Origin: a bacterium | GTDB taxonomy: Bacteria; T1Sed10-126 | NCBI GenBank assembly: GCA_003554945.1 | Contig: PWHN01000056.1 | Coordinates: 1 to 10,175 of the forward strand | Length of the DNA: 10,175 nt | Direction of reading: 5' to 3' | In this document: positions 3,811-10,175 of the stretch, one piece after another | How the letters are laid out: each line of letters opens with the position of its first letter | Position numbering within the stretch: the first letter of the stretch is position 1 | Notes under the pieces: generated by a model | The model's database searches: none | What the model was told of the DNA's origin: nothing | The model's input: only the letters and a program-made list of their open reading frames with translations | Translations under genes and position numbers: made by a program

Positions 3811-3854
3811 AAAACCTATCTATTGGACAGGATATAAATCTGATTAACTGGATT
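3811..3854. repeat. Second copy of the 44-bp direct repeat
   Basis: Identical to 2317-2360 and in the same orientation, 1494 bp away. From 3822 on it forms the left arm of element C. Recombination between the two copies would remove the ATPase gene and its promoter as one piece. Confidence 0.85.
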
Positions 3855-4106
3855 AAATACGGGCTTAAAGGCATTTTTTTGAGTGCTGTTTTAACAGCAC
3901 CCTGACGAAGCCATTCGCCAGGCACCGGTGGGGCGCTTTTAAATTCACGCCACGCGCCCTGCACCCTGCGCTCCTCGCCTATCGCACTTAAGTCATGCGG
4001 TTTTTCGCTTCTCGCCCTGTCGCTCATTCGCTCCTCGCCCTTTCCCCCACTCCCCCACCTCCCACTCGCGCCCTTTATCCTGTCTATCCCGTAAATCCCG
4101 TCCATT
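3822..4106. mobile_element. MITE-like ~285-bp element C with terminal inverted repeats
   Basis: The left arm at 3822-3855 (ATTGGACAGGATATAAATCT then GATTAACTGG) is matched by an inverted right arm at 4077-4106 (ATCCTGTCTATCCCG... CCCGTCCATT). The arms follow the same left/right pattern as in element A. The interior carries T7G (3874-3881), hairpin GTGCTGTT-tt-AACAGCAC (3883-3900) and hairpin CCTGACGAA-gcca-TTCGCCAGG (3901-3922, one mismatch). The remainder, 3923-4076, is C-rich low-complexity sequence (CGCCCTGCACCCTGCGCTCC and similar) without a gene. The right arm has a 9-nt period, which is why its translations read NPV/YPV repeats; those are not proteins. Confidence 0.6.
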
Positions 4107-8044: not shown

Positions 8045-8419
8045 TCAAAGCTCAATACCTTCCTTCTTAATTTTTTTCTTTAACGATTCTTCAGAAGAAT
8101 TCAGTGGGAAAATTTCCACAGGAATATGATCATCCAAGTAATCCAAACGTGCACTTGCCGTAAAAAATTGTTCGTCGGGCTGCCCTTTCACAGCAAGATC
8201 TACATCCGACCACCTGGCGAAAGGTTGATCATCCCTCGCTAGTGATCCAAAAACAAAAACTTTATCAACACCAAACTCCTCTTTTAATATTTTTTCAGCC
8301 TTGCTTGCTACCGTCCAAGCCTTTTCTTTTAATCTCTCATCATGAATCTTCTCGAGGTTGGCTCGAGGATTATATTTCTTGAGTTCCTCTTCAGACAAAT
8401 CCAGAGCTGTTTTTGCCAT
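8045..8419 (-). CDS. Minimal nucleotidyltransferase (MNT) domain protein
   Basis: A cytoplasmic protein of 124 residues with the pol-beta-like nucleotidyltransferase signature VFVFGSLARDDQPFARWSDV then DLAV: GS at 58-59 and the metal-binding D72-x-D74, with E102 in PVEIFPL as candidate third acidic residue. MNT proteins commonly pair with a HEPN protein in toxin-antitoxin modules, where the MNT member modifies or neutralises the HEPN RNase. No HEPN gene is visible on either side, only the 52-codon ORF downstream, so the target is unknown. The ATG at 8419 is supported by GAGGTG about eight bases upstream. The extra N-terminal 45 residues are charged and helical. Confidence 0.85.
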   Translation of the reverse strand: MAKTALDLSEEELKKYNPRANLEKIHDERLKEKAWTVASKAEKILKEEFGVDKVFVFGSLARDDQPFARWSDVDLAVKGQPDEQFFTASARLDYLDDHIPVEIFPLNSSEESLKKKIKKEGIEL

Positions 8420-9240: not shown

Positions 9241-9519
9241 TCAATTCGGGTTTTGGTTGTTGAACAGTTCATCGTATAGTTTTTTTAGTTCTTTTTTCTG
9301 GTTTTGCCAGCTTAGTTTTTCTTCCAGGCGGTTGCGGCCGGATTTGCCCATTTCTTCTCTCCTTTCGGGATTGTCGGCCAGGTCTAATATTTTATTGGCC
9401 ATGTCCTGGGGATCGTTATCGTCTGCGTAGAGGGAGGCGTCTTGGGCCGAGTAGCGGCCTTCGGTGAGGTCGAACTGGACTATTGGTTTTTCGAGAGCCA
9501 AAGAGGCATAAGCCTTCAC
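9241..9519 (-). pseudogene. 5'-truncated glycosyltransferase family 4 (C-terminal remnant)
   Basis: Ninety-two codons matching the C-terminal end of GT4/GT1-type glycosyltransferases: the ALEKPIVQFDLTEGRYSAQD segment corresponds to the nucleotide-sugar-binding MALGKPIV... region, followed by the typical helical tail AQDASLYADDNDPQDMANKI... NPERREEMGKSGRNRLEEK. A whole enzyme has about 350-400 residues. Here an in-frame TGA stands directly before the GTG at 9519, and the sequence upstream belongs to something else. The fragment keeps its natural end (TGA at 9241). It is most likely a remnant left by a deletion or insertion at about 9520. Translation from the GTG cannot be excluded, but it would lack the acceptor domain. 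Confidence 0.8.
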
Positions 9520-9833: not shown

Positions 9834-9896
9834 TTTAATCAAGCCTCCCGGCAGTTATTATAAACGGGAAAACAATTACATCAAAATCAAAAACAT

Positions 9897-10004
9897 ATTG
9901 GACTGGATAGTAATTCTGATTTGCTGGATTTAAAACACTTCAACGTCAATTGCATTTTTTTGAGTGCTGTGCCAACAGCGCCCTGGCGAAAACACTTCGC
10001 CAGG
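9897..10004. repeat. Left part of a third inverted-repeat element (copy D)
   Basis: The left arm ATTGGACTGGATAGTAATTC then TGATTTGCTGGATT (9897-9930) is followed by GCA-T7-GAGTGCTGT exactly as in element C. It then has hairpin GTGCTGT-gcca-ACAGCGC (9964-9981) and a perfect 9-bp hairpin CCTGGCGAA-aacac-TTCGCCAGG (9982-10004). The flank before the arm (CAAAATCAAAAACAT) resembles the one before element A. A right arm would be expected near 10190, outside the window. Confidence 0.6.
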
Positions 10005-10058
10005 TACAGGGCAACAATAGTGGCAAAAATAAAACCCCTTTTATTTTGACTCAAGAGA

Positions 10059-10064
10059 TATAAT
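10059..10064 (+). promoter_or_regulatory. Possible -10 box for the right-edge gene
   Basis: A perfect TATAAT that would start transcription near 10071, just before the structured leader. No -35 lies at 16-18 bp; TTGACT at 10046-10051 is too close to serve. Confidence 0.3.
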
Positions 10065-10076
10065 CAAAAGTTGTGG

Positions 10077-10172
10077 ATGAGTCATTTAAAAAAATGTGCT
10101 CATGACGTATCCTTGGGTATTCAAGATCAATTGAGTTACCCAATTTTTACTTTGGAGGGATACGCCATGAGC
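10077..10172 (+). promoter_or_regulatory. Structured leader with start-codon-sequestering stem and alternative hairpin
   Basis: GCTCATGACGTATCC (10098-10112) pairs with GGATACGCCATGAGC (10158-10172) in 14 of 15 positions; the second arm contains the ATG (10167) and the end of the GGAGGG ribosome-binding site. Inside the loop, TTGGGTA (10113-10119) pairs with TACCCAA (10137-10143), extended by TCAA/TTGA. Upstream, ATGAG and CATTT (10077-10087) can pair with AAATG and CTCAT (10092-10103), using part of the first arm and so competing with the sequestering stem. This resembles translational control by mutually exclusive hairpins, or the fold-back inhibition known for some transposase mRNAs. Confidence 0.55.
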
Positions 10173-10175
10173 AAC
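10167..10175 (+). CDS. Start of a gene cut by the window edge
   Basis: ATG AGC AAC (MSN) at the very end of the window, with GGAGGG (10154-10159) ending seven bases upstream. Nothing can be said about the product. The structured leader and the decayed, repeat-rich surroundings would fit a transposase, but this is a guess. Confidence 0.5.

Follow-up and report, generated by a model that had tools for sequence, protein, structure and literature searches.

A leader hairpin predicted to close the presumed transposase start codon of an IS256-family insertion sequence

What is the use of a leader that folds upon the very codon where its gene begins? This question is raised by the last bases of a stretch of bacterial DNA 10,175 nucleotides long (the window in what follows), which is one entire contig (G000:C109) of a draft genome with 121 contigs and ends nine bases into a gene. 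A first-pass annotation had seen there a hairpin hiding the start codon, together with an upstream segment able to compete with it, and had proposed that in an insertion sequence such a device would limit the production of transposase from read-through transcripts. The features on which the discussion turns are collected in Table 1.

Table 1. Features at the right end of the window, with the ground on which each was placed.
Feature	Position	Strand	Basis
Target-site duplication (9 bp), presumed left copy, TTGACTCAA	10046..10054	.	By analogy with the 8-9 bp duplications of relatives
Left terminal inverted repeat, IS256-family, GAGATATAATCAAAAGTTGTGGAT	10055..10078	+	Repeat profile; 23/24 identical to the repeats of L131 and of L133
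TATAAT of the terminal repeat; probable -10 of a promoter arising at the circle junction	10059..10064	+	No -35 upstream; relatives' right repeats with TTGACA
Local upstream hairpin ATGAGtCATTT / AAATGtgCTCAT, third segment of the first-pass annotation	10077..10103	+	p = 0.017 locally; relatives without it
Promoter-like pair TTTAAA-17-TATCCT, -10 (10108-10113) in the 5' arm, predicted start ~10120	10085..10113	+	Best-scoring pair of the leader; predicted
A-tract near the 5' arm; on the - strand, U-tract after the hairpin	10088..10094	.	A-tract counts in leaders vs shuffles
Outer stem, 5' arm	10097..10112	+	Fold and complementarity of the arms
Inner hairpin TTGGGTA..TACCCAA	10113..10143	+	Fold and complementarity
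Shine-Dalgarno GGAGG	10154..10158	+	Sequence; ATG 8 bases downstream
Outer stem, 3' arm, holding the start codon	10158..10173	+	Fold, complementarity, unpaired probabilities
First three codons (Met-Ser-Asn) of a presumed IS256-family transposase, continuing off the contig end	10167..10175	+	Inferred from terminal repeat and leader

By their sequence, bases 10055-10175 are identified as the left end, the first 121 bases, of an insertion sequence of the IS256 family, and the gene at the right edge is presumed, from the terminal repeat and the leader that precede it, to code for the transposase of that family. A terminal-repeat profile built from the repeats of 19 relatives, with the window's own excluded, gives its best score at 10055 (33.9, z 6.5), against 4.0 or less at every other position of the window. 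In the relatives the same terminal repeat leads to the same leader and then to a Transposase_mut gene; as a case in point, L133 encodes a Transposase_mut protein. Plasmid and viral relatives follow a common plan, with the repeat GAGnTATnnncgAAAnTnGTG, a stem ggCGTATCC / GGATACGcc, an inner hairpin and the ATG. A scan of genome-collection contigs with the pattern of the 3' arm gave 22 matches, two of which (L026 and L034) led to the family: the matches in Nitrosovibrio and Nitrosospira have the same layout before a gene resembling IS256-family transposases, and the relatives of this gene retrieved by tblastn are annotated as IS256 family, while the other matches of the scan appeared unrelated to it. 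Exact duplications of 8-9 bp abut the repeat ends GAG...CTC in five relatives, which places the tip of the element at 10055. The insertion-sequence origin that had been guessed at thus acquires a family name.

The relatives have matching right ends; that of the window's element was searched for in the assembly and not found. At the DNA level there is no second copy in the assembly itself, where the first-pass annotation had hoped for further copies of the leader to compare, nor in 97 other genomes, and searches of plasmids, phages and viral contigs with the leader DNA returned only itself or chance matches. Contigs of other drafts (L127, L135, L165, L166) likewise end just past an IS256-family leader, as is expected if repeated elements break assemblies; a contig that stops in this way can be recognised as the trace of an insertion sequence that was not assembled. 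Remains of other Transposase_mut elements also came to light. Contig C105, which begins in the end of an IS256-family transposase, was considered as a part of the window's element and set aside because its terminal repeat differs. This fragment (L045, G000:C105:1-260, starting inside the 3' end of the transposase gene), a Transposase_mut copy with broken frames in the same genome (L044, G000:C68) and, in genome G001, a related right end of a Transposase_mut element (L047, G001:C48) all have ends unlike those of the window's element. An IS200/IS605 identity was rejected, as the genome has no match to the IS200-type TnpA (NF033573). Five Y1_Tnp (PF01797) genes are found on contigs C103, C94, C16, C14 and C79; their open frames of 290-321 codons have the size of REP-associated tyrosine transposases, and the genome also carries dispersed palindromic repeats.

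The hairpin is real. The two arms of its outer stem, TGCTCATGACGTATCC and GGATACGCCATGAGCA, are complementary at 15 of 16 positions, the sole mismatch being A10105 x C10165, so that the 15-bp stem with 14 matches described in the first-pass annotation was correctly seen, as was the inner hairpin. Folding of 10059-10175 yields -36.3 kcal/mol, against a mean of -20.5 (sd 3.1) for shuffled sequences (z -5.1), none of 200 shuffles being equally stable. As had been claimed, the start codon (10167-10169) sits within the 3' arm together with a part of the ribosome-binding site: it is predicted to be buried in the leader fold, with a mean unpaired probability of 0.001 for the AUG and of 0.50 for the Shine-Dalgarno sequence, whose 3' end alone lies clearly within the stem. 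The outcome depends on where the RNA begins. For RNAs beginning at 10020, 10059 or 10071 the probability that the AUG is unpaired is again 0.001, whereas it rises to 0.89 for an RNA beginning at 10120. A brake on the translation of RNAs begun outside the arm is a strong prediction.

Covariance models of Rfam matched neither the window's leader nor any of 20 IS256-family loci. Leaders were gathered by protein family (NF033543) and by tblastn, with starts picked by their Shine-Dalgarno sequence. Of 50 leaders, 66% have a strong stem over the start region, meaning a score of 9 or more; of the 82 control genes, a small set, 4.9% do (p = 4.6e-12). About eight starts were corrected by hand after the leaders had been read, which somewhat favours structure; in sets without these corrections, broken copies included, stems appear in 35%, or in 44% under another score. 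Start regions joined to their own upstream sequence have the stem in 67% of cases, and in 11.9% when joined to the upstream sequence of another element. Subfamilies have arms without common sequence (GGCGTATCC/GGATACGCC, GCATGACCTC/GAGGTCATGC, AGGAATAAATC/GATTTATTCCT); most stem positions display several types of base pair, counted without regard to kinship, all types being represented across the family, and the 3' arm holds a constant place at the start of the gene, with its end on or beside the AUG. The outer stem is thus widespread in the IS256 family: the pairing recurs, the sequence does not. In IS256 itself the start region is paired in the fold, within a more irregular structure. The window's element resembles IS256, IS1542, IS905, ISAeme25, ISVa19 and ISCth4 in its terminal repeat, in how far the start codon lies from it, and in the leader stem that covers this codon. 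IS256-family relatives further have 8-9 bp duplications and the split halves of a junction promoter (PMC7780238 for the promoter); the transposase of the window's copy lies beyond the contig end.

Where, then, would transcription begin? The TATAAT noticed in the first-pass annotation does exist, 4 bases from the tip, at a place where relatives have TATAAC, TATGCT or TATGGT, and yet it makes a doubtful promoter on its own, with no correctly spaced -35-like hexamer upstream of it. TTGACA stands 7 bases from the tip in the right repeat of relatives, and TATnnn 4 bases from the tip in their left repeat; with a 6-base junction between joined ends, a 17-base spacer separates the two. Since TTGACA is thus found in the opposite terminal repeat of relatives, TATAAT probably supplies the -10 of a promoter that arises once the element circularises and its two ends meet, of the kind reported for ISCth4 and IS256 (PMC7780238). 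A further start site may lie inside the leader. The pair TTTAAA-17-TATCCT scores above shuffled upstream sequences with p = 0.027, and relatives have stronger ones: TTGACA-17-TATCCT (L083, L142), TTGACT-17-TATCCT (L165) and TTGATA-17-TAAACT (L089). Among 35 leaders, 10 have a -35, correctly spaced from the -10 of the 5' arm, that outscores shuffled upstream sequences (Fisher 1.4e-5 over the set); nine further leaders, which are not independent, give a smaller signal. An internal promoter with its -10 in the 5' arm, making a short RNA with an open start codon, is a plausible proposal. The first-pass annotation had taken a start downstream of 10112 as fatal to its reading; such a start is possible, as the promoter-like pair overlaps the 5' arm, and if used it would explain the read-through idea, not refute it.

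Taken together, we think it probable that the leader acts in cis to brake translation of the transposase at the left end of an IS256-family element, although a good measure of doubt remains. An RNA begun upstream of the 5' arm, by read-through from the host or at a circle-junction promoter, would carry both arms and fold, putting the start codon and the last part of the Shine-Dalgarno sequence out of reach, so that translation of the transposase would be repressed; an RNA begun at the internal promoter, with its -10 lying in the 5' arm, would come without that arm and be translated. Computation shows the terminal repeat, the predicted structure and its wide recurrence under different sequences in the family; from these we infer the gene, the repression of its translation and a start inside the leader. 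The limit on read-through transcripts foreseen in the first-pass annotation fits with a start codon predicted to be closed and with a pairing that recurs across the family. To be sure, several facts speak against a brake: the hairpin would also be part of the RNA from the circle junction, from which most transposase is expected to come, the window's element has a weak internal promoter, and the stems have no excess of G-U over A-C (5 to 5), which selection acting on the sense RNA would predict. If the brake is true, it would amount to a family-wide control of transposase level, with a structure that recurs while its sequence changes, and it predicts that outside transcription into the element does not raise transposition. 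The matter is of some consequence, as IS256-family elements are widespread bacterial insertion sequences that help spread resistance genes.

The same bases lend themselves to other readings. In the first-pass annotation the hairpin belonged to a three-segment translational switch, where an upstream segment would capture the 5' arm and free the start codon. The capture is feasible, for ATGAGtCATTT (10077-10087) can form 10 pairs with AAATGtgCTCAT (10092-10103; p = 0.017 locally), but no more than the outer part of the arm takes part in it, and CGTATCC/GGATACG is left untouched. When this pairing is enforced the fold becomes 3.6 kcal/mol weaker, the core stem is kept and the start region is still paired. 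Conservation among homologous leaders, which had been proposed as the touchstone, holds for the outer stem and fails for the third segment: its pairing is absent from 13 relatives, and the segment is missing in L131, L133, L121, L087, L083 and L142 despite nearly identical terminal repeats. The idea of mutually exclusive hairpins is not supported, as the segment is predicted to free neither the core stem nor the start codon, and a conserved switch of this design is most improbable. Following a different track, the palindrome could be a feature of the DNA, either a subterminal binding site of the transposase or a DNA hairpin, hiding the start codon by position alone. Its location within about 120 bases of the element's end and stems that lack a G-U excess would suit this view, which we nevertheless consider quite unlikely: the 3' arm is fixed relative to the start codon, yet the arms of the subfamilies are unrelated, and a protein-binding site would keep its sequence.

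The other strand deserves closer attention. The hairpin may act there, wholly or in part, as an intrinsic terminator of leftward transcripts, perhaps of an antisense RNA over the transposase start. RNA-OUT in IS10 and art200 in IS200 are antisense RNAs that cover the start of a transposase gene. Of 56 leaders, 30 have an A-tract adjoining the 5' arm, where shuffles lead one to expect 13.0, and only 2 have a T-tract there. In RNA of the - strand the stem of the window has no break, the mismatch becoming U-G (z -7.5), and CAUUUUUUU follows it; the layout that an intrinsic terminator would have, a stable hairpin directly before a U-tract, is there. Against this stand loops of 40-50 bases, long for a terminator, and the GC-rich members of the family, whose tracts are purine-rich rather than A-rich. 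The count of wobble pairs favours neither strand: a bias towards the antisense (20 A-C to 5 G-U) had appeared at first, and was dropped when a strict count gave 5 to 5. A terminator need not exclude a role of the sense strand; it stays a live rival or addition to the brake, if an unlikely one. Combining the two, a single palindrome might serve both strands in much of the IS256 family, the sense strand closing the transposase start in read-through RNA, the antisense strand making an intrinsic terminator (at which a small antisense RNA may end), and the 5' arm also holding the -10 of the element's own promoter. This composite is speculative and we would not bet on it; if true, the element would distinguish where a transcript began and exclude all but its own.

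A brake on translation would not be without precedent. In IS10 and IS50 a long RNA that reads in from outside folds over the start, while the shorter RNA of the element does not. The likeness lies in a start codon closed in a long RNA and open in a short one, as predicted here from the contrast in AUG accessibility; the difference is that for the window's element a start within the 5' arm is a prediction, and the families are unrelated. IS200 also has a start-hiding hairpin in its leader, where an internal hairpin occludes the ribosome-binding site of the transposase (summarised in PMC3196728), with an unrelated transposase of which the genome has no counterpart. In ISPpu9 a fold of the tnp 5'-UTR buries the ribosome-binding site, and weakening it increases expression 26-fold (PMC8450116); the fold over this site is what the two have in common, whereas that of ISPpu9 is relieved by an antisense RNA and its transposase differs. 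The pseudoknot of the leucine element, which lies close to an IS256-like transposase (PMC1262725), is something else. Start-hiding leaders are therefore known in other insertion sequences; for the IS256 family, as far as we found, they are undescribed in the open literature, and neither there nor in Rfam did we find a leader stem reported for IS256, while older remarks on single elements may exist.

The neighbourhood of the element displays further repeats. A dispersed repeat of the form GGACTGGATA..CTGATT..CTGGATT occurs in the window at 1017-1064, 3821-3928 and 9880-10010, as well as at G000:C117:78420-78490 and C14:9986-10056, and in two places it is followed by GAGTGCTG....AACAGC; the IS256-family element lies just downstream of one of these copies. 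Between 8960 and 9200 there are several direct repeats of about 60 bases, all containing a TTTCGTCCATGGACGAAA-type palindrome; they may form an array of repetitive extragenic elements. Among the genes on the - strand, two resembling Kdo/WaaP-type lipopolysaccharide kinases (48-878 and 1404-2165) stand near exopolysaccharide-type genes; 9241-9519 codes for the C-terminal part only of a glycosyltransferase (weak Pfam matches), probably a broken gene, and 8045-8419 for a small protein with a nucleotidyltransferase domain (Polbeta / NTP_transf_2), of the kind found in HEPN-MNT pairs.
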